From an uncultured Clostridia bacterium (lineage in GTDB: Bacteria; Bacillota; Clostridia; UBA1212; UBA1255): a stretch of 64,000 bases of DNA. This document shows, piece after piece, positions 396-41,048 of the stretch. The stretch covers positions 1 to 64,000 of the forward strand of contig CAJFUB010000026.1 in NCBI GenBank assembly GCA_904420095.1, written 5' to 3'. Under the pieces are notes generated by a model. It did not search any database and was not told where the DNA came from. It saw nothing but the letters and a program-made list of their open reading frames with translations. The position numbers and the translations under genes are program-made. Numbering within the stretch: position 1 is the stretch's first letter; every line of letters starts with the position of its first letter.

Positions 396-3300
396 ATGGT
401 GCATTCGGTAATGTACGGTCAGAACGAGAGGAAAAGCTATTCAAAGATTCAGGAAATTCTCGAGATGCCGAATCTGATAGCCGTTCAGAAAAGCTCCTAT
501 AAGCAGTTCCTGGACGAAGGTCTGAAAGAAGTTTTCAAGGATATTTCCCCAATCACCGATTACTCGGGAAATCTAATGTTGGAATTCGTAGATTATTATC
601 TCGAAAATAAGACAAATTATTCAATCGAAGAGTGTAAAGAAAGAGATGCGACCTATGCGTCTCCCCTGAAAGTACGTGTACGTGTTGTGGATAAAGAAAC
701 GGGCCTGATGAAAGAGGATGTGATTTATTTCGGAGAATTTCCTCTCATGACCGATAACGGCACCTTTATCATGAACGGCGCGGAGCGGGTAATCGTCAGC
801 CAGCTCGTTCGCTCACCCGGCGCCTATTTTGAAAAAAACTACGATAAGACAAAAGGAAAATACATTACCGCATCCACGCTGATCCCCAACAGAGGCGCAT
901 GGCTGGAAACGGAAATCGATTTCAGCGACGTAATTTATGTCAGGATAGACAGAAACAGAAAAATACCTGCCACAATCCTGCTCCGCGCCTTCGGGTTCAG
1001 CGACGACGCGAGCATATTGAATCTTTTTTCCGTATCCAGAGACGAGCTTGCACCCGAATACGCGGATGAAAACGACGACAGCATCGTCGACGAGCGTCTG
1101 CTGAACACGCTGCAGAAGGACGCCACGCAAAATACGGACGAGGCGTTGATTGAGATCTACAAAAAGCTTCGCCCGGGCGAGCCGGCTCTCGTGGAAAACG
1201 CGCGCTCGCTTTTGTACGGCATGTTTTTTGACGCAAAAAGATATGATCTTGCCAAGGTCGGCCGATATAAATTCAACAAGAAGCTTTCGCTTTCCTCTCA
1301 GATTGCGGGAAAAACGCTCGCGGCCGACGTAATCGACACGGCTACCGGAGAAATCCTTGCAAAAGCCGGCGAAGCCGTATCCGAGGAAAAAGCGCTCGAG
1401 ATCCAGAACAGCGGCATAAATACGGTAATCATTAACACGCCGTACCGCCCGGTCAAAATCATCGGAAACAACACCGTCGATATCACGAAATACGTGACGT
1501 TTGACGTCAAGGAATACGGCATTACCGAAAAAGTAAATTTTACGGTTCTCAGTGAAATTCTCGAAAAAGCAGAGGGCGACGAGGACGTTTTAAAGAAGGA
1601 AATTAAAGATCGCGCCAATGAATTGCAGCCTAAGCATTTGACGCTTGACGATATTCTGGCGTCGTTCAGCTATATTTTAAATCTCCAGTATGATCTGGGC
1701 GCTACCGACGATATTGACCATCTCGGCAACAGAAGAATCCGGTCGGTAGGAGAGCTTCTGCAAAACCAGTTCCGAATTGGGCTGTCCAGAATGGAACGGA
1801 TTGTACGGGAACGTATGGCGATGCAGGAGAAAGACGTCATCACGCCGCAGGCGCTGATCAACACGCGGCCCGTGACGGCGGCGATTAAGGAGTTTTTCGG
1901 ATCCAGCCAGCTTTCTCAATTTATGGATCAGACGAACCCCCTCGCCGAGCTGGCAAACAAAAGAAGACTCAGCGCGCTCGGCCCGGGAGGCCTTAATCGG
2001 GAACGCGCCACCTTTGACGTCCGCGACGTGCATTATTCTCATTACGGACGAATGTGTCCGATAGAAACACCGGAAGGTCCAAACATCGGTTTGATCGGCT
2101 CGCTAAGTACATATGCGAGAATCAACGAATACGGATTCATTGAGGCTCCATATAGAAAATACGATCCCAAAACAAAAACCGTTACGGACCAGATCGACTA
2201 TCTCATGGCGGATGAGGAAGACAAGTATATCGTTGCGCAGGCGAACGAGCCGCTGGACGAGGAAGGCCATTTTGTCAACCGGAAGGTCGTCTGCCGTTAT
2301 CGCGACGAGTTTATAGAGATCGAAAGCGACCGCGTTCATTATATGGACGTATCGCCCAAGCAGGTCGTTTCCGTCGCTGCGGCAATGATTCCGTTCCTGG
2401 AAAACGACGACGCCAGCCGCGCTCTGATGGGCTCGAACATGCAGCGTCAGGCTGTGCCGCTGCTTTGCGCAGAATCGCCGATTGTTGCAACGGGAATAGA
2501 ATATAAAGCGGCAAAGGACTCGGGCGCCGTCGTACTTGCGAAGCATTCCGGTACCGTTAAAGACGTAACCGGCAAATATATCACGATCGTACGCGAAGAC
2601 GGTACGGAGGACAAATACAATCTGCTGAAATACCTGCGCTCCAACCAGGGGACCTGTATCAACCAGAGACCGGTCGTGACCTTTGGGCAGAGCGTGAACG
2701 AAGGAGACGTCATTGCAGACGGTCCATCCACGGACAAAGGCGAAATCGCACTCGGGCGCAATGCGCTGATCGGCTTCATGACATGGGAAGGCTATAACTA
2801 CGAAGACGCCGTACTGATCAGCGAGAAGCTGGTGAAGGAAGACATTTACACCTCGATCCATATCGAGGAATACGAATGCGAGGCCAGGGATACCAAGCTC
2901 GGTCCGGAAGAAATCACCGCCGAGATCCCGCACGTCGGAGAAGACGCGCTTCGGATGCTTGATCCGAACGGCGTCGTTATCGTAGGTTCCGAGGTTCATG
3001 CCGGCGACATCCTGGTCGGTAAAGTAACGCCGAAGGGCGAAACCGAGCTGACCGCGGAAGAACGGCTGCTGCGCGCGATTTTCGGAGAAAAATCAAGAGA
3101 CGTTCGGGATACGTCGCTCAAGGTACCGCACGGAGAATCGGGAATCGTCGTCGACGTCAAAGAATTTACCAGAGAAAACGACGACGAGCTGGCGCCCGGC
3201 GTCAACCGCATGGTTCGCGTTTACATCGCGCAGAAGAGAAAGCTCTCGGTAGGAGATAAAATGGCGGGACGCCACGGAAACAAAGGCGTTATTTCCAGAA

Positions 3301-4211
3301 TTTTACCGGAAGAGGATATGCCGTTCCTGCCGGACGGTACTCCGCTTGAAATCGTATTGAACCCGCTCGGCGTTCCGTCGCGAATGAATATCGGGCAGGT
3401 GCTCGAGGTCCATCTGGGATACGCGGCAAAAGCGCTTGGCTGGAAAATTGCCACGCCTGTATTTGACGGCGCTTCCGAACACGACATCATAGAAACGTTG
3501 AAACTTGCCGGCAAAAGCCCGGACGGAAAGACGATCCTATACGACGGACGCACGGGAGAACCCTTTGATAACCCCGTTACGGTAGGTTATATGTATTACC
3601 TCAAGCTGCACCATCTTGTCGACGACAAAATCCATGCGCGTTCTACGGGACCGTACTCGCTCGTAACACAGCAGCCGCTGGGCGGAAAAGCGCAATTCGG
3701 CGGTCAGCGGTTCGGAGAGATGGAGGTCTGGGCGCTGGAGGCATATGGCGCGGCGTATACGCTCCAGGAAATTCTGACGATTAAGTCGGACGATACGATC
3801 GGACGCGTTAAGACGTACGAGGCGATCGTCAAGGGCGAGAACGTTCCGGAGCCGGGCATCCCCGAATCCTTCAAGGTTCTTGTAAAAGAGCTCCAGAGCC
3901 TGGCGCTTGACGTACGGATCTTCATGGAAGACAATACGGAAATCCCGCTTAAGGAAGCGGAAGAGGATTATATCAAAAATCCGGATAAATACAGAACGAA
4001 AAAAGACGTATATAATCCGGACTTCCAGAATTTTACGGATGAATCTGGAGAAATCTTCATGTCCGGCGATATGGACTCGCAGGACGACGTTCTTCATGAC
4101 GACGAATTTGAAGATGCCGCCGATGCGGAAATAGAAGATTTCGAGGAAGGAGAAGCAAATCTCGACGCAGATGTGTTCGACGCCATTTCGGATGATACCG
4201 ATCTGGAATAA
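396..4211 (+). CDS. rpoB: DNA-directed RNA polymerase subunit beta
   Basis: Catalytic beta subunit of RNA polymerase, about 1271 residues, the usual size in Clostridia. I chose ATG 396 because GAGGTGAT (381-388) lies 7 nt upstream and the protein then starts [19 protein letters not shown], matching the family; the frame is open to a GTG at 324, but the added residues look non-conserved. The rifampicin-binding segment (about residues 505-545), fork loop and C-terminal clamp sequences ([18 protein letters not shown]) are present. In the rifampicin segment the residue equivalent to E. coli His526 is Asn521 (codon AAC 1956-1958), while Asp516 and Ser531 equivalents are kept. The C-terminus is an acidic tail. 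rpoC follows after 15 nt and the two are surely cotranscribed. Confidence 0.98.
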
Positions 4212-11417: not shown

Positions 11418-11477
11418 ACCATAAGGACACGTTTTTTCTCATATTGATTAGGATATCTATTTAAGGAGGATTTAAAA

Positions 11478-12686
11478 ATGGCAAAAGCTAAGTTCGTAAG
11501 AACAAAACCACACGTAAATATTGGTACAATCGGTCACGTTGACCATGGCAAGACGACATTGACCGCTGCCATTACAAAAGTGCTTTCTCTGAAGGGCGAT
11601 GCAGTCGCAAAAGCATATGACGAAATTGACGGCGCTCCCGAGGAGAAGGCCAGAGGAATCACGATCAACACGGCGCATGTTGAGTATGAAACGGACAAGA
11701 GACACTATGCGCACGTTGACTGCCCTGGCCACGCCGACTATGTTAAGAACATGATCACCGGCGCAGCTCAGATGGATGGTGCAATCCTGCTCGTATCCGG
11801 TCCGGATGGCCCGCAGGCGCAGACGAGAGAGCATATCCTTCTTGCACGTCAGGTTGGTGTTCCTTACATTGTAGTATTCATGAACAAATGTGATATGATC
11901 GATCCAGGCGACGAGGAGCTTCTTGACCTTGCCGAAATGGAAATCAGAGAGCTGCTCAGCTCTTATGAGTTCCCGGGCGACGAAATCCCGATTATCAGAG
12001 GCTCTGCGCTCAAGGCGCTGGAAAGCACCTCCGAGGATCCGAATGCTCCGGAATATGAGTGCATCAACGCGCTGATGGATGCCGTTGACAGCTACATTCC
12101 TACACCGGAAAGACCGATCGACAAGCCGTTCCTGATGCCTGTTGAAGACGTATTCACGATCACCGGACGCGGTACGGTTGCGACGGGCCGTCTTGAAAGA
12201 GGCGTAATCAAGGTCGGTGATCCCGCGGAGATCGTAGGACTCAGCGAGGAAAAGAAGAACACGGTTGTTACGGGCGTTGAAATGTTCAGAAAGCAGCTGG
12301 ATCAGGCGGAAGCCGGAGATAACATCGGCGTTCTGTTAAGAGGTATTCAGAGAACCGAAGTGGAAAGAGGCCAGGTTCTTGTTAAACCGGGAACGATTCA
12401 CCCGCACACACACTTCAAGGGTCAGGTTTACGTACTGACGAAGGAAGAGGGCGGACGTCACTCACCGTTCTTCAGCAACTACAGACCGCAGTTCTATTTC
12501 AGAACGACGGACGTTACCGGCGTTATTACGCTTCCCGAGGGTACCGAGATGGTAATGCCGGGAGACCATATCGATATGGACGTTAAGCTGATCACGCCGA
12601 TCGCAATGGAGGAAGGTCTGCGCTTCGCGATTCGTGAGGGTGGCAGAACGGTAGGAGCCGGTACGGTTTCCAAGATTATTGAATAA
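11478..12686 (+). CDS. tuf: elongation factor Tu
   Basis: GTPase that delivers aminoacyl-tRNA to the ribosome. 402 residues, start supported by AAGGAGGAT at 11463-11471. GHVDHGKTT (G1), [13 protein letters not shown] and NKCD (G4) are intact. One small oddity is the switch II neighbour, where the common DGPMPQT reads DGPQAQT. Domains 2 and 3 look normal. A strong terminator follows directly, so tuf ends the block. Codon use is strongly biased, as expected for a highly expressed gene. Confidence 0.98.
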
Positions 12687-32746: not shown

Positions 32747-33754
32747 ATGAGAAAATGGATTTCTGTCCTGCTCGGAATGGGGATGCTTTTTTCTATGACG
32801 GCCTGCGGCAGCCTGTACACCTCCGAACCCGGAGGCGGAACGTCCGGCGGCGGCCAGAGAACGCCGGCTGCGCCCGGAAATTATCCGGGAAACAGCGTCG
32901 TCTATATGACTACGGAGATCAGCCCGGAGGGACTGATGGCGGTATACGAGGCGCTGAACTGGACGCCCTCTGGGAATGTAGCGGTAAAGCTTTCCACCGG
33001 AGAGCCTCCGGCCAGTAATTATCTGCGCCCGGAACTCATTGCGGACCTGGTGCAGGCGGTAGACGGCACCATCGTGGAATGCAATACAGCCTACGGCGGC
33101 TCCCGTGCAGAAACGGCTATGCATTATCAGGTTGCGGAGGATCATGGCTTTACGGCGATCGCCGATTTCCAGATCTTGGATGAAGACGGCTCTATGACAC
33201 TGCCCGTGGAGGGCGGGATCCGATTAACGGAAAACTATGTAGGAGCGGCTTTCGCGGATTACGACTCTTATCTGATCTTATCTCACTTTAAAGGCCATTC
33301 CATGGCGGGGTTCGGCGGAGCCATTAAAAACATTTCCATCGGACTGGGCTCGAGCGAGGGCAAGTGCTGGATCCACAGCGGAGGGACCAGCCGTACCAAC
33401 GCGTGGGGCGGAGAGCAGGACGCTTTCCTGGAAAGCATGGCCGAGGCGGGAAAATCGGTAGCGGATGCTCTGGGGGACCGGATTATCTATATCAATGTGA
33501 TGAACCGCCTTTCCGTAGACTGCGACTGCGACGGAAACCCTGCGGAGCCGGACATGCACGACATCGGAATTTTGGCCTCCGCCGATCCGGTGGCGCTGGA
33601 CCAGGCCTGCATTGATCTTGTATATGCCGCGGAGGATGGGCAGTCTCTCATAAACCGCATTGAAAGCCGCAACGGTCTGCATACGCTGGAGCATGCCGCA
33701 GAAGTCGGCCTTGGCAGCCGCGGCTATGAACTGATCCGCCTCGAGACAGAATAA
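32747..33754 (+). CDS. DUF362-domain lipoprotein
   Basis: 335 residues. A signal peptide ends in a lipobox (SMTAC, lipidated Cys20), followed by a Gly/Ser/Pro linker, so the protein should be anchored outside the membrane. The rest matches DUF362, with the patterns SHFKGHSMAGFGGAIKNISI and DPVALDQACIDLV. DUF362 proteins are often cytoplasmic and fused to ferredoxin domains; here there is none, but a Cys/Asp-rich VDCDCDG motif stands out and could bind metal. It lies 26 nt after the reductase gene and 1 bp before the permease gene. Function not known. Confidence 0.88.
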   Translation: MRKWISVLLGMGMLFSMTACGSLYTSEPGGGTSGGGQRTPAAPGNYPGNSVVYMTTEISPEGLMAVYEALNWTPSGNVAVKLSTGEPPASNYLRPELIADLVQAVDGTIVECNTAYGGSRAETAMHYQVAEDHGFTAIADFQILDEDGSMTLPVEGGIRLTENYVGAAFADYDSYLILSHFKGHSMAGFGGAIKNISIGLGSSEGKCWIHSGGTSRTNAWGGEQDAFLESMAEAGKSVADALGDRIIYINVMNRLSVDCDCDGNPAEPDMHDIGILASADPVALDQACIDLVYAAEDGQSLINRIESRNGLHTLEHAAEVGLGSRGYELIRLETE

Positions 33755-35573: not shown

Positions 35574-36032
35574 ATGACGGAGCGAGAACTGCGTCGTTTG
35601 AGCAGAAAAGACCTTTTGGAAATGATGATTGAACAGAAAAAAGAACTGGAGGCCCTGAAGCTTGAATTAGAGGAGGCGAGAAAAGCCCTACAGAACAGAG
35701 AAATCATGCTTAACGAGGCGGGCTCCATCGCGATTGCCGCTCTGCAGATCAACGGAATTTTCGAGGCCGCGCAGGCGGCCGGCCAGCAATATTTAGAAAA
35801 TATTCAAAAGCTCAATGAGCGGCAGGCGGCGATCTGCGCAAAAAGGGATGCGGACAGTAAGGCGGAAGCCGACAGACTATTAAAAGAAACCGCGGAAAGA
35901 TGCCGTGAGCTGGAAGAAGAGGCGAAGCAAAAATCGGATGCATACTGGCTGGAGGTTTCCAGGCGTCTGCAGTCCTTTTATGATACGCATCAGGAGCTGA
36001 AGCAATTGCTGAGCTTCAGCTCCCGGGCATAA
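35574..36032 (+). CDS. coiled-coil protein at the head of the pilus cluster
   Basis: 152 residues, almost all helical. It begins MTERELRRLSRKDLLEMMIE, followed by heptad-like segments (about 15-45 and 85-125) around a conserved-looking middle (EAGSIAIAALQINGIFEAAQ). No membrane helix or signal is present, so it is cytoplasmic. Similar proteins occur beside signal peptidases and sortases in clostridial surface clusters, but I know of no assigned role. GGAGGAGG is 11 nt before ATG 35574. Signal peptidase starts 19 nt downstream. Confidence 0.8.
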   Translation: MTERELRRLSRKDLLEMMIEQKKELEALKLELEEARKALQNREIMLNEAGSIAIAALQINGIFEAAQAAGQQYLENIQKLNERQAAICAKRDADSKAEADRLLKETAERCRELEEEAKQKSDAYWLEVSRRLQSFYDTHQELKQLLSFSSRA

Positions 36033-36051
36033 ATAAAACGGGGCATTCAGG

Positions 36052-36636
36052 ATGAAACGGAACCAAAACATCTCTCCGCCTACGATACAGCAGCTGGAGG
36101 CAGAGCTGAAACGAGAGAATTACCGAAGAAAATACAGAAGGATGCTGCGCAGTACGCTTTCCGTGCTGGTCGTAGTAGCCGCAGCCGCAGTGCTGGTCTC
36201 CAGTCTTCTGCTGCCGGTCCTGAAAGTTTACGGCTCGTCTATGACGCCAAATCTGACTAACGGTGATATCGTTGTTGCACTGAGGAGAGGCTCCTTTGAA
36301 CGCGGCGATGTGATTGCATTCTATTATAATAATAAAATTTTAGTCAAACGTATTGTCGGCTTGCCGGGAGAATGGATTGACATTGACAGCGAAGGCGGCG
36401 TACTGATTGATGGCGTACCGCTGGAAGAGCCCTATCTGACGGAAAAGACTTTAGGGGAATGCAGCATAGAGCTGCCGTATCAGGTTCCGGACGGAAGGTA
36501 TTTTGTCATGGGAGACAACCGAACCGTTTCCAGTGATTCAAGAAGCATTGCTGTGGGATGCGCTGCAGAGGAACAGATCGTAGGAAAGCTTATTTTCCGT
36601 ATATGGCCTTTCCGTGCGTTCGGAACCATAGCATGA
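36052..36636 (+). CDS. lepB: signal peptidase I
   Basis: Cleaves signal peptides of exported proteins, probably of the pilins next door. 194 residues. One N-terminal membrane helix (about 34-57) is followed by the catalytic serine in YGSSMTP (Ser63) and the general base lysine in ILVKRIVGLPGE (Lys99), with the conserved box MGDNR...SSDSR. It has the prokaryotic Ser-Lys dyad, not the archaeal/ER Ser-His SipW pattern. A dedicated signal peptidase is a regular part of sortase pilus clusters in Gram-positives. Confidence 0.93.
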   Translation: MKRNQNISPPTIQQLEAELKRENYRRKYRRMLRSTLSVLVVVAAAAVLVSSLLLPVLKVYGSSMTPNLTNGDIVVALRRGSFERGDVIAFYYNNKILVKRIVGLPGEWIDIDSEGGVLIDGVPLEEPYLTEKTLGECSIELPYQVPDGRYFVMGDNRTVSSDSRSIAVGCAAEEQIVGKLIFRIWPFRAFGTIA

Positions 36637-36755
36637 GGGGGAAGGAAGGTTCTGCCGTGAAACAGATACTGCGAAAAATCTGCATACCAAAAGCGCCGGG
36701 ATAAAGACAACGAGGCGTTGATACACCAAATTAACATCGAAAGGAGATACATGTT

Positions 36756-38465
36756 ATGAAAAACACAAAAAAAGCAGCAGTCCTGCTGCTGTCCCTGTTC
36801 CTGGCTTTGATAACGGCCGTGCCGGTGTTTGCGCAGGAAGGAACTTATTCCATCACTATTGAAAATGAGGCATCGGGCCATATCTACGAGGCATACCAGA
36901 TTTTCGCCGGCCGTTTGTCAACCGATGATGAAGGAAATGTGATTTTGTCCGACATCACCTGGGGTACTGGCGTAAATGGAGAAGCGCTGCTGACTGCACT
37001 GCAGGCGGCAGATGCTGAGAAATATGGCAGCTGCGCGACCGCTGCAGAAGCGGCGGAATCTATTGGAGCTACATCTGCCGACGCAGAGGCGTTTGCGGAC
37101 ATCGCTGAAAACTACCTTACCGGAACAAAGGCTGAAAGCACGGCAGGAGACGGCAGCTATGTCATCTCCGGTCTGGATGCCGGTTACTATCTTGTGATGG
37201 ATCAGGAAGACAGCTTAGAAGGCGCCGGCTCCTCCTATACTGCTTACATCCTCCAGGTGCTGGGCAATGTAACCATGCAGCCCAAGGATACTGATATCCC
37301 TACCCTTGAGAAGAAGGTTTGGGAGGATGACGATGCCGATAGCAGCAGCGGATACGGAAACGGCTATTACGAAGCGGCCGACCATACCATCGGCGATGTG
37401 ATTCCTTTTAAGCTTATCGGATCCATCCCTGATATGACGGACTATGACTCCTATACTTACCGCTTCCATGACACCCAGTCCGCCGGACTGACCTTACATG
37501 GAAATTCCTTTGAGGTCTATCTGGTTGATGACCTGAATGCTGAGTTAGATGCGCTGACGCCTTTAAATAATGAGGGAAATCGGTACTATACCGTAAACAC
37601 GGATCCCGGCAATGGAGAGACGTTTACCGTCAGCTTTTCAAACCTGAAAACCGTTCCTGATGTTGCAGACTACACTCATATTGTAGTAGCTTACACCGCC
37701 GAGCTGAACGAAAACGCGAAAACCGGTCAAAAAGAAGGGAATCCTAACGAGGTTTATCTGGAGTTTTCCAATAACCCTAACGGCGAAGGCTTTGGCAGGA
37801 CCGAAAAACAGTACGTTGTTGTATTTACTTACACGCTGAACGGCCTGAAGTACGACGGCAATTTTGATTCCTATGAAAAGGAAGCTCGTTTGGCAGGGGC
37901 TAAGTTTGTTTTGCTGAACAGTACACAAAATAAGGCGGCCCTTGTTGCATTTGGCGGGACCTTTATAGAGTGGGTTGACCTCCCAGGGAACGCTGAAAGC
38001 TATGCAGACGTGACACTTGAAGAGTGGAACAACATGTATGCGGATGCCGGCCGGGATGTGGTCCTGACTTCTTCCAGTATCGGCATTGTCAGAATCTCCG
38101 GGCTTGACGATGACGAATACTACCTTTTGGAGATCGAGGCGCCTGCCGGCTACAATATGCTAAAAGCTCCGGTTAAGGTTTCGATTACCAGCGTACTCCA
38201 GCACGTGAATTTCTATGGAAGCAATCAGGATCAGATCCTGACTGATCTGTACGCCATTGTAAATGACGACGCCGAGAATCCTATGCACTGCACGATGCTT
38301 GGAGGCGGTACGGTTACTGTCCCCCTCGCAAACTTTTCCGGCACCACGCTGCCCGAAACGGGCGGAATCGGCACGACGTTTTTCTTTGCGGCAGGCGGTG
38401 TCCTGGCTGTCGGCGCAGGAATCCTGCTGGTGGTCAGGAAGCGTGTGAAAAGCGAAAATAAATAA
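36756..38465 (+). CDS. major pilin, LPXTG-anchored, isopeptide-forming
   Basis: 569 residues. The signal peptide ends at about VFA26. Residues 30-185 form the N-terminal pilin domain. The sequence TMQPKDTDIPTLEKKVW around 178-193 is the region expected to hold the pilin-motif lysine used for polymerisation. Middle and C-terminal Cna-B-like domains follow, with a classical E-box (YYLLEIEAPAGY, about 456). The sorting signal LPETG (532-536) is followed by a hydrophobic helix and a basic tail (RKRVK). This is the expected backbone of a covalent pilus. An AAAGGAG site precedes ATG 36756. Confidence 0.93.
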   Translation: MKNTKKAAVLLLSLFLALITAVPVFAQEGTYSITIENEASGHIYEAYQIFAGRLSTDDEGNVILSDITWGTGVNGEALLTALQAADAEKYGSCATAAEAAESIGATSADAEAFADIAENYLTGTKAESTAGDGSYVISGLDAGYYLVMDQEDSLEGAGSSYTAYILQVLGNVTMQPKDTDIPTLEKKVWEDDDADSSSGYGNGYYEAADHTIGDVIPFKLIGSIPDMTDYDSYTYRFHDTQSAGLTLHGNSFEVYLVDDLNAELDALTPLNNEGNRYYTVNTDPGNGETFTVSFSNLKTVPDVADYTHIVVAYTAELNENAKTGQKEGNPNEVYLEFSNNPNGEGFGRTEKQYVVVFTYTLNGLKYDGNFDSYEKEARLAGAKFVLLNSTQNKAALVAFGGTFIEWVDLPGNAESYADVTLEEWNNMYADAGRDVVLTSSSIGIVRISGLDDDEYYLLEIEAPAGYNMLKAPVKVSITSVLQHVNFYGSNQDQILTDLYAIVNDDAENPMHCTMLGGGTVTVPLANFSGTTLPETGGIGTTFFFAAGGVLAVGAGILLVVRKRVKSENK

Positions 38466-38478
38466 CGCTTTTACAGAT

Positions 38479-38517
38479 CGCTGCGGCGGAGAAGGGCTTT
38501 TCTTCCCCGCCGCAGCG
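38479..38517 (+). promoter_or_regulatory. long hairpin between the main pilin and sortase C genes
   Basis: CGCTGCGGCGG (38479-38489) pairs perfectly with CCGCCGCAGCG (38507-38517), and the inner GAAG/CTTC can extend it. No T run follows (the next bases are GTAAGG), so full termination is unlikely. It could protect the 3' end of pilin mRNA or cause partial termination, so that pilin is made in excess over sortase. Confidence 0.7.
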
Positions 38518-38530
38518 GTAAGGAAGCCGC

Positions 38531-39370
38531 ATGAAGAATGAACACGCCAAGAGGAACAAAATGATTTCCATCCTTCTGCTTCTCGTCCTGCTCGGAGGGC
38601 TGTCTTTACTGCTGTATCCGCTTGTCAGCGATTATTGGAATTCGTTCCACCAATCTCGGGCGATTGCGACCTATGTAGAAGCCGTGGCAGAATTAGACGA
38701 TGCATCCTACGAAGAATGGCGGGAGGCGGCGCAGGCCTATAACACCGCGCTGCAAGAGGATCAAACACGCTTCCAGCCCAATGAGGAAGAGAACAGTGCC
38801 TACAAACAGCTGCTGGATGTATCGGGTAAGGGGATCATGGGATATCTTGAAATCCCCTGTATAAATGTTTCCCTGCCAATCTATCATGGGACGGATGAGG
38901 AGATCCTTCAGATTGCGATCGGCCATATCGAGGGCTCCTCTCTCCCGGTCGGCGGCACCGGAACTCACTGCGTGATCTCCGGACACAGAGGCCTCCCGTC
39001 CGCAAAGCTGTTCACGGATCTGGACCAGCTGACAGAGGGTGATCTCTTTACCCTTCGGGTGCTGGATGAAACGCTGACCTATGAAGTAGATCAAATCCGC
39101 ATTGTAGAACCGGAGGATGTATCCCTGCTGAGCATTGAGGCAGGAAAGGATCTTTGCACGCTGATGACCTGCACTCCTTACGGGATCAACTCCCACCGTC
39201 TTCTGGTACGGGGGCATCGTATCGAGAATCAGGAGGCCGCAGGCTCCGTCCGCATCACGGCGGATGCCATACAGCTTGATCCCAGACTGGCGGCTCCGAT
39301 TCTTGCAGCTCCGGTGCTGCTGAGCCTTTTGCTTTGGACGCTGTTTAATCCGTTTAATAAAAGAAAATAA
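38531..39370 (+). CDS. class C (pilin-polymerising) sortase
   Basis: Membrane transpeptidase that links pilin subunits. 279 residues with an N-terminal helix (about 11-31) and a second C-terminal helix (about 258-275), the class C layout. Catalytic His152 (VISGHRGLPSAKLF), Cys214 (TLMTCTPYG) and Arg223 are present. The DPW/DPF lid motif that covers the active site in many class C enzymes is not visible; the equivalent stretch reads ENSAYKQLLDVSG. AAGGAAG precedes ATG 38531. Confidence 0.93.
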   Translation: MKNEHAKRNKMISILLLLVLLGGLSLLLYPLVSDYWNSFHQSRAIATYVEAVAELDDASYEEWREAAQAYNTALQEDQTRFQPNEEENSAYKQLLDVSGKGIMGYLEIPCINVSLPIYHGTDEEILQIAIGHIEGSSLPVGGTGTHCVISGHRGLPSAKLFTDLDQLTEGDLFTLRVLDETLTYEVDQIRIVEPEDVSLLSIEAGKDLCTLMTCTPYGINSHRLLVRGHRIENQEAAGSVRITADAIQLDPRLAAPILAAPVLLSLLLWTLFNPFNKRK

Positions 39371-39385
39371 GGGGATGGAGAAGGG

Positions 39386-40360
39386 ATGAGCAGAGATGAA
39401 AAAAATAAACTCTGGAAGCGCATTACGGCAGCGTTGCTTTCTTTTCTGGCCTGCATGGCCTGCGGCACTGCGGCTGTGTTTGCCGATGAGAAGATTGATA
39501 CGGAAGCGACCGCGTCCCTGACTGTTTTTTTCGGAAAAGACGGGGAAGGCTTTTCTAACGTGGAATTTCGTATCTATCGCGTAGCCGGCGGATCGGAAAC
39601 AGGCGGCTATACCTTGTCGGGCGTTTTTCAGGATTATCCCGTCGTTCTGGAGGGACTGGACAGCTCCGGCTGGAGAGCCCTGGCGCAAACCCTGGACGCA
39701 TATGCTGCGCGAGACGGCCTGCCGCCGCTCCAAACGAAAAGAACCGGCCGGGACGGACAGGCAGAATTCACGGGCTTAGCTGCCGGCCTGTATCTGATAA
39801 GGGGAGACCGGTATGTCGCGGGGGGAAAAACTTATACGCCGGAGCCGATGCTTGTAACGCTTCCCGTTCTTACACAAGAAAATGAGTGGAATTATAATGT
39901 TGAGGTTTCCTGTAAATTTGAAAGCGAGGATTCTTCTTCGGATCGCGTTCAGCGCAGCGTCCTGAAAATCTGGGAGGATGACGGGAATGAAAAAAATCGT
40001 CCGAAGGAGATTTCTGTACAGCTCTTGGAAAACGGTACGGTTGTGGATACTGTGACTTTGCATGCGGAAAACAATTGGGAACATACATGGGAAAGCTTAA
40101 CCGCCGATTCCAAATGGCAGGTCGCAGAAGCCGAGACTCCCGCGGGGTATACGGTTTCTGTGGCACAGGAGGGAACCGTCTTTGTGATGACTAATACCTA
40201 TTCCGCCGGTCCGTCTTCCCCTCCGCCGAGCACGCCGCCGACGGCGCCGCAGACGGGAATGCTTTGGTGGCCGGTACCGCTGCTTGTCTGCGGCGGCCTG
40301 TTCCTTCTGGCGACAGGCTGTCTGATCCGGAGCCGGCGCGGTGAGCAGGATGATGAATAA
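39386..40360 (+). CDS. second pilin / Cna-B surface protein with an APQTG sorting signal
   Basis: 324 residues. The signal peptide ends near AVFA32. A first domain (about 40-175) looks like the N-terminal domain of minor pilins. A Cna-B domain follows (about 193-272), with Lys in LKIWEDDGNEKNRP and Glu in VAEAETPAGY, which would form the isopeptide bond. A Pro/Ser-rich stem leads to APQTG (287-291), a hydrophobic helix and an Arg-rich tail. The usual Leu of LPXTG is replaced by Ala and the following position is Pro, so it may need its own sortase, and one is encoded next. Confidence 0.88.
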   Translation: MSRDEKNKLWKRITAALLSFLACMACGTAAVFADEKIDTEATASLTVFFGKDGEGFSNVEFRIYRVAGGSETGGYTLSGVFQDYPVVLEGLDSSGWRALAQTLDAYAARDGLPPLQTKRTGRDGQAEFTGLAAGLYLIRGDRYVAGGKTYTPEPMLVTLPVLTQENEWNYNVEVSCKFESEDSSSDRVQRSVLKIWEDDGNEKNRPKEISVQLLENGTVVDTVTLHAENNWEHTWESLTADSKWQVAEAETPAGYTVSVAQEGTVFVMTNTYSAGPSSPPPSTPPTAPQTGMLWWPVPLLVCGGLFLLATGCLIRSRRGEQDDE

Positions 40361-41048
40361 GAGTAAAAGGGGCGGAACCGTCCTCATCGCCTTAGGGCTG
40401 CTGTTGTTTGCGGCAGCCCTTCTTTTGATCGCCTATAATCTATTTGAGGAACGGCGCGCCGGGGATGAGGCGCATAATGTGCTTAAGCAGCTGCAGCAGC
40501 AAATACAGAGTCCGGAGGCGTCTTCTGCGCCAGACAGAAATTCGGGCGCGGAAGCTCAACCGCCCGAGCCGGATCCCGACGGCGCAGCGCCTTCTGCGCC
40601 ATCGGCCCCCCTGGAAAGTCCAGATTATATTTTAAATCCGAACAAGGAAATGCCTGAAGCAGAAATAGAGGGGAATGGCTATATCGGCATTTTGGAAATT
40701 CCGGCGCTTGCGCTGTCCCTGCCGGTGATGAGCAAATGGAGCTATCCGAAGCTGAAAATTGCTCCGTGCCGTTACAGCGGCTCCGCTTATACAGGCAATT
40801 TGGTGATCGCCGCACATAATTACCGCACCCATTTCGGTCTGCTTGAGAGTCTTGAACCCGGCGCACAGGTAAAATTCACCGATGTGGAGGGAAACGTATT
40901 TTCCTACGAAATCGCGGAAACCGAAATCCTCGAACCGACCGCGATTGAAGAGCTGCTGAGCGACGAATGGAATTTAACGCTTTTTACCTGCACCTATGGC
41001 GGGCAGGCGCGCGTTGCGGTTCGGTGCAGAGCGATCGGTCTGAAGTAG
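40341..41048 (+). CDS. second sortase of the pilus cluster
   Basis: 235 residues from GTG 40341 (GGAG at 8 nt); ATG 40350 or 40353 are also possible, and all overlap the preceding gene by up to 20 nt. One N-terminal membrane helix (about 12-32), a long Pro/Ala/Ser-rich stalk (about 55-100), then the sortase fold starting GYIGILEIPALALSLPV. Catalytic His159 (VIAAHNYRTHF), Cys217 (LTLFTCTYGG) and Arg224 are present. It lacks the C-terminal helix of class C and looks closer to the class B/D and housekeeping types. Translational coupling to the APQTG protein suggests that this is its substrate. Confidence 0.85.
   Translation: MSRMMNKSKRGGTVLIALGLLLFAAALLLIAYNLFEERRAGDEAHNVLKQLQQQIQSPEASSAPDRNSGAEAQPPEPDPDGAAPSAPSAPLESPDYILNPNKEMPEAEIEGNGYIGILEIPALALSLPVMSKWSYPKLKIAPCRYSGSAYTGNLVIAAHNYRTHFGLLESLEPGAQVKFTDVEGNVFSYEIAETEILEPTAIEELLSDEWNLTLFTCTYGGQARVAVRCRAIGLK

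Follow-up and report, generated by a model that had tools for sequence, protein, structure and literature searches.

Two sortases and two sorting signals in a predicted pilus operon of an uncultured Clostridia bacterium

How Gram-positive cells distinguish the shaft, tip and base pilins of their pili is an open question; in Actinomyces, a sorting-signal element beside the LPXTG motif was shown only recently to decide tip assembly (PMC11389406). The question is posed in compact form by a six-gene operon at positions 35574-41048, plus strand, of a 64,000-nucleotide stretch of contig CAJFUB010000026.1 from an uncultured, gut-type Clostridia bacterium (the whole stretch is hereafter the window). 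The operon encodes two sortases, and a small CnaB protein ending in APQTG is encoded immediately before, and overlapping, the gene for the second sortase, Srt2. An operon with two separable signals and two sortases makes the pilin-sorting code testable with peptides. Having compared this locus with its relatives, we propose that it probably builds a covalent pilus through two orthogonal sortase channels, with Srt2 anchoring the structure via the CnaB protein as base pilin.

Two predicted sorting addresses in one operon

The cluster has the gene content of a sortase-assembled pilus: LPXTG pilins whose domains are of the isopeptide type, together with a class C sortase (SrtC). From their sequences, the six genes are read as a covalent pilus operon. 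The shaft (major) pilin (36756-38465, 569 amino acids) comprises GramPos_pilinBB and SpaA domains and an LPXTG anchor. It scored 73.6 bits against RrgB_K2N_iso_D2 (cut-off 30), 25.3 against the anchor model (cut-off 15.9) and 78.1 against the SpaH/EbpB model, under that model's cut-off of 95; within its LPETGG signal, the LPETG pentapeptide (38349-38363) is followed by GIGTT. The class C sortase, the putative pilus polymerase (38531-39370, 279 amino acids), scored 282.4 bits against NF033745 (cut-off 160). The CnaB minor pilin (39386-40360, 324 amino acids) matches GramPos_pilinD1 and Cna_B. Its C-terminal signal region reads ...PPPSTPPTAPQTGMLWWPVPLLVCGG..., and its extended sorting signal, APQTGMLWWPVP, occupies 40244-40279. 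Srt2 (40341-41048, 235 amino acids; sortase domain 60.2 bits, cut-off 26.6) begins within the CnaB gene, with an overlap of 20 bases if translation starts at GTG 40341 and a smaller one from the ATGs at 40350 or 40353.

We surveyed 141 loci: 20 fetched from relatives, 80 from a scan of species genomes, 40 from a class survey, and the window. The scan required the peptide [VI]I[AC][AG]HNYxxH and confirmed at least 579 stretches, of which the best 80 were used; the labelled sources among these 80 are Bacillota. The surveyed loci contain 123 Srt2 open reading frames (ORFs), after 13 of 136 matches to the Srt2 model that scored better with the SrtC model were left out; L032 and L123 hold the same genes, as do L118 and L170, and each pair is counted twice in this tally. 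Relatives of Srt2 occur in 14 of 58 whole genomes by protein search, in 9 of the 31 genomes of the window's order by alignment search, in 48 of 391 genomes class-wide (E 1e-15, weaker matches being more distant sortases) and in 32 of 398 phylum-wide (E 1e-12, besides many weak matches). A single one of 72,556 plasmid records matches, weakly, giving no sign of plasmid carriage. Judged by gene content, the same two-sortase arrangement is widespread in related bacteria.

A CnaB gene lies within 20 bases of srt2, or overlaps it, in 91 of 98 loci. Catalytically complete Srt2 proteins have 92 CnaB partners, 91 of them distinct, with the pentapeptides LPQTG (72), IPQTG (5), LIQTG (4), LPYTG (3) and LPPTG (2); IPVTG, LPKTG, LPNTG, IPNTG and the APQTG of the window occur once each, such that the first residue is L in 83, I in seven and A in one. 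Beyond the pentapeptide, 87 of the 91 carry WP at +4/+5, and 73 carry WWP. Across all 101 partners with a signal, a set that includes nine proteins outside the CnaB model and excluded from the counts of 91, position +1 is Q in 55, M in 18, L in 13 and V in seven, followed by W at +3 (82), W at +4 (94) and P at +5 (98). As a control, 148 other LPXTG ORFs of at least 300 amino acids from the same loci, made distinct by signal sequence, have G at +1 (136), G at +3 (135) and T at +4 (108). Only two of these, in L167 and L177, have WP, in LPQTGQL(W/K)WPV signals, and neither adjoins srt2; the LPQTGQLWWPV protein of L167 is located at 11471-12460. At L117 8995-9639, the ORF before srt2 encodes a 909-residue protein with KAPQTGGGG and no CnaB match.

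The extended signal of the Srt2 partners is xPQTG-x-L-W-W-P-V-P, whereas that of shaft and tip pilins is LPxTGG-x-GT. Each operon carries, by these patterns, two distinct predicted addresses, one per sortase. In the window's genome, PQTGxxWWP is encoded once, and a control pattern gave no match.

The earlier note on this DNA had proposed that APQTG and the adjoining sortase form a dedicated pair with a non-canonical anchor, an idea to be given up if APQTG proved rare even among close relatives. The dedicated substrate/sortase pair is borne out by the adjacency of the two genes, the distinctness of the signal from those of shaft and tip, and its single genome copy. APQTG as the recognition motif did not survive: among the 91 distinct partners it occurs in the window only, a rarity that tells against the motif and not against the pairing. 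A separate APQTG motif class was rejected on the same count. What is non-canonical in the anchor is one residue, A for L, in a longer conserved element whose PQTG-x-LWWPVP is kept. With the extended signal, anchored proteins in uncultured gut Clostridia can be matched to their sortase from sequence alone.

A candidate anchoring role for Srt2

In the mechanism that we propose, the class C sortase would read LPxTGG-type signals and polymerize the shaft pilin, plus a tip adhesin in most relatives, and Srt2 would read only the xPQTG-x-LWWP of the small CnaB protein. Residue K177 of the CnaB protein would accept the last shaft subunit, ending polymerization, and Srt2 would join the CnaB protein, hence the finished pilus, to peptidoglycan, a route that would replace the housekeeping class A sortase.

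In the CnaB protein, a D1-like pilin domain is followed by a CnaB domain and then by a short stalk rich in proline (six prolines within the 25 residues before the signal), which leads to the sorting signal. Residue K177 is kept in 92 of 96 CnaB partners; it stands where the D1-like domain ends, and its Y-x-V-x-x-x-x-K surroundings resemble the pilin motif. A lysine of this sort is a feature of both major and basal pilins, the basal ones being small proteins whose tail is rich in proline (PMC5817068). From the near-invariant lysine and the stalk, we infer that the CnaB protein may be the base pilin, which would narrow the tip-or-anchor role suggested earlier to that of an anchor.

A class C sortase is present in 95 of 126 Srt2 loci. 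Of those without one, 13 have an upstream flank too short to judge, and 18 lack SrtC despite an upstream flank of 4.5 kb or more; among the latter, L118 and L121 encode single proteins of 2176 and 2259 amino acids that bear LPQTGMVWWP beside Srt2. Because Srt2 and the signal occur without SrtC, the signal follows Srt2 and not the pilus, as would be expected of an anchoring enzyme more than of a shaft polymerase. The same loci bear on the alternative that Srt2 is a second, accessory pilin polymerase, which inserts the CnaB protein into the shaft or places it at the tip, while another sortase, for example of class B, anchors the pilus. A class B sortase is indeed present in the genome, and operons of the 2a type in group B Streptococcus (GBS) have one class C sortase per minor pilin (PMC2821406). 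This alternative is nonetheless unlikely: a minority of loci hold Srt2 and its signal without SrtC or shaft pilin, tip adhesins in related operons bear a signal of the SrtC type, a tip pilin would have no need of the conserved K177, and Srt2 lacks the C-terminal hydrophobic segment of the class C enzyme.

At L033 (8778-18001, minus strand), L183 (261-9254) and L242, which have no SrtC, Srt2 lies beside proteins with GTLAYF/GTMAYL-type N-termini, a motif that we take to be a mark of TasA/camelysin-like proteins. The CnaB signals at these loci are of the LIxTGQ(L/V)xWP type, with LIDAGQMNWP in L242, and Srt2 and the CnaB protein may possibly anchor another type of fibre there.

Five sortases were found in the window's genome, three of class C, one of class B, and Srt2; a class A sortase was not found in this assembly, which is 94.9% complete. 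The absence of class A and a pentapeptide near LPXTG would suit a housekeeping sortase that serves all LPXTG proteins of the cell and is merely located in a pilus operon. Such a role for Srt2 appears very improbable, as the extended signal is confined to the neighbour of srt2, with one copy in its own genome, and some genomes hold more than one Srt2, each within its own locus (for example, G299). Two of the three class C sortases belong to a further pilus locus in this genome (G000:C28 13000-32000; L029 625-9674), together with a 1897-residue adhesin ending in IPSSGG and an LPVTGG shaft pilin; no CnaB/Srt2 pair was found in that locus.

After a single N-terminal transmembrane segment and a linker rich in proline, Srt2 has a sortase domain that contains the complete triad H159, C217 and R224. 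Its AlphaFold2 model has a mean pLDDT of 90.9 and matches PDB sortases at E of about 1e-9. By sequence, Srt2 passes only the general model TIGR01076 (41.5 bits against 39.35), and its scores against the class models, 39.5 (C), 34.3 (E), and 31.7 and 23.9 (D), reach none of their cut-offs of 140-165. The libraries used thus assign Srt2 to the sortases but to none of their classes. Its best PDB sequence match is 4d70 (E 9.5e-5), the sortase D of C. perfringens, which prefers LPQTGS and whose operon encodes an LPQTGS protein (PMC4498605). The similarity is weak, however, the role proposed for that enzyme is in sporulation, and Srt2 falls far under the NCBIfam class D cut-offs. A reading of 4d70 and 4d7w as pneumococcal SrtG2 and SrtG1 was rejected, the latter entry being S. 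agalactiae SrtC1.

The nearest described system is the GBS pilus island PI-2b, with the gene content orf, lep, AP1, Spb1/BP, AP2, SrtC1 and Srt2 (PMC5249243). Both systems have a small leading orf, a signal peptidase, a shaft pilin, a small ancillary pilin, a class C sortase and a second sortase, and the class C sortase of the window, which matches 8gr6 at E 5e-76, also matches S. agalactiae SrtC1 (4d7w) at E 1.5e-65. We take 4d7w to be the PI-2b enzyme. Unlike PI-2b, the window has no AP1 or tip adhesin, and no class A sortase was found in its genome; its signal is xPQTG-x-LWWP, and the likeness to PI-2b is one of gene content and of SrtC sequence. Since AP1 is lacking and homology of the window's Srt2 to that of PI-2b is only putative, we do not file the operon as PI-2b, although it would work like PI-2b. 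In 2015, Lazzarin and colleagues reportedly found that SrtC1-2b alone polymerizes the pilus, with its lid displaced, and that Srt2-2b, of no canonical class, anchors it via the minor pilin; if so, a mechanism of the kind that we propose is not new in principle.

Relatives of Srt2 without the catalytic triad

The catalytic His-Cys-Arg is kept in 114 of the 123 Srt2 ORFs; L136 is cut by a contig end, and eight lack the triad. These are L037 9480-10073, L038 1513-2118, L041 7573-8163, L042 332-943, L162 8040-8708 and L188 378-953, all on the minus strand, together with L039 8724-9332 and L040 9717-10307. All eight are full-length ORFs of 191-222 amino acids and occupy the srt2 position of pilus operons. 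The residues aligned to His/Cys/Arg are C/R/Y, S/E/Y, S/Q/Y, S/R/Y, T/K/Y (three) and Y/R/Y; the alignment is loose around the lost His, and in none of the eight rows is a His found there. Triad-less forms account for six of the 11 Srt2 genes detected in the order to which the window belongs. The scan peptide requires the catalytic His, and Srt2 proteins without it therefore could not be found by the scan. Searching the orders of two genomes that carry triad-less Srt2 gave no further case (2 genomes, no new place); in the 67 genomes of the other such order, the extra matches, in G420 and G410, keep the triad.

Seven of the eight have a CnaB partner, with the signals PPPTGE, QPPTGD, EPPTGD, PPHTGD, DTPTGD, PPKTGD and SPETGE, and WP is kept in one of the seven. 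A quick tree covered 104 rows (98 Srt2 and six SrtC), with L123, L134, L136, L170, odd-numbered L097-L137 and rows below 150 bits left out. In it, the triad-less proteins fall into one clade (SH-aLRT 100, stem 2.2) that branches from within complete Srt2, a grouping to which long branches may contribute. As a single clade, they make the match of dead enzyme and altered signal one evolutionary coincidence, not eight. Srt2 and its signal may have changed together, such that the base protein would now be held in the membrane in these relatives.

A conserved, catalytically dead sortase clade at the same gene position raises the possibility of a role of sortases besides transpeptidation. There is precedent for keeping a dead enzyme: S. 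pyogenes SipA, a signal-peptidase-fold protein of a pilus operon, lacks the Ser-Lys dyad yet is kept in pilus assembly (PMC4049620). The SipA of the window, in contrast, keeps its Ser-Lys motifs. Pilus islet 2 of the pneumococcal/mitis group (pitA, sipA, pitB, srtG1 and srtG2) likewise holds sipA, a shaft pilin and two sortases within one islet, with srtG2 and pitA as pseudogenes in most pneumococci (PMC3178606). Unlike the loci described here, it shows decay by pseudogenization and not an intact dead enzyme, and no such CnaB base pilin gene is listed for it.

A tip adhesin gene was not found between the signal peptidase and shaft pilin genes of the window, where 36637-36755 is an empty spacer. 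This gap is at least 2 kb, leaving room for an adhesin, in 25 of 38 loci and under 400 bases, without an adhesin, in the other 13, the window among them. The module had been called complete in the earlier note, which is too strong: the pilus gene set is present, but the large tip adhesin of most relatives is absent. A recognizable adhesin remnant in the spacer (36637-36758) was considered and rejected, since alignments to relatives gave short, weak matches only.

Loss of the adhesin, the rarity of APQTG, with its change of Leu to Ala, and the existence of relatives with dead Srt2 and PPxTGD-type signals could together indicate that the anchor channel of the window is decaying and that the pilus is held by the CnaB membrane anchor only. 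We consider this improbable, as the Srt2 triad, PQTG-x-LWWPVP and six intact reading frames are all kept, and loss of the adhesin is common among the surveyed loci.

Other observations weigh against anchoring by Srt2 through a CnaB base pilin. The initial A of the window's motif occurs in no other CnaB partner and this copy may be cut poorly, such that Srt2 would have to tolerate Ala for Leu. The eight relatives that keep Srt2 without catalytic residues suggest that Srt2 may in part do something other than transpeptidation. Foldseek gives Srt2 matches of similar strength in classes A, C, D and E and does not separate base from other pilins, for which TM-scores are low. The stalk is not constant, with a median of four prolines before the signal and five or more in only 36 of 96 partners, and an assembly of this completeness could have missed a class A sortase.

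More tentatively, we speculate that Srt2 could represent a separate sortase class that reads, outside the pentapeptide, the tryptophan-rich LWWPVP at the membrane side of the cut and acts as a portable anchor not only for sortase pili but also for TasA-like fibres and for giant surface proteins that occur singly, one lineage having become a conserved pseudosortase that holds its PPxTGD partner uncut in the membrane. The literature search, with most subscription papers outside its reach, returned no described pseudosortase and no account of the Clostridial arrangement. As far as we could tell, the breadth in Clostridia, the LWWPVP signal, the non-pilus uses and the dead clade are apparently new.

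Other features of the operon

All six ORFs of the earlier note were confirmed in place, with family matches for all but the first. Its observation of a lidless class C sortase also holds: the DP[FWY] lid motif, which is typical of the class and outside the NCBIfam definition, is absent from the window enzyme. This is the rule here, as 102 of the 111 class C sortases encoded at the surveyed loci lack the strict motif.

Between the shaft pilin and class C sortase genes lies an intercistronic RNA hairpin (38466-38530, plus strand) with a minimum free energy of -38 kcal/mol and a z of -5.3, and 0 of 200 shuffles were as stable. The corresponding gap has z < -3 in 52 of 75 loci, against 2 of the 53 gaps that precede the shaft pilin gene. 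The window hairpin has no T-run, and we therefore propose mRNA processing or stabilization, suggesting a role in setting pilin output over sortase.

The signal peptidase I (36052-36636; SipA/Lep-like, Peptidase_S26) scored 122.8 bits against TIGR02227 (cut-off 47) and retains both Ser-Lys dyad motifs, GSSM and KRIVG. It is preceded by the first gene of the operon (35574-36032), which encodes a coiled-coil protein of 152 amino acids with no signal peptide or transmembrane segment seen and no Pfam or NCBIfam family above cut-off. Described earlier as a leader of no recognized role, this protein still has no family, but it is not a stray: of 27 related ORFs, 21 lie directly upstream of a signal peptidase gene and two directly upstream of srt2. 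The latter are in L105 (8466-9609) and L114 (8454-9612), where the coiled-coil gene overlaps srt2 and neither a pilin nor a class C sortase is present, which suggests that the protein is tied to Srt2 or SipA rather than to the pilus.

The operon is flanked 5' by a DUF362 gene and an ArsP-type permease gene and 3' by two ORFs that resemble dapF and dapL, names given from inspection by eye only. The DUF362 protein (window 32747-33754) precedes the operon, and in L084 an ORF with a C-terminal sequence similar by eye (2697-3668) likewise does so.

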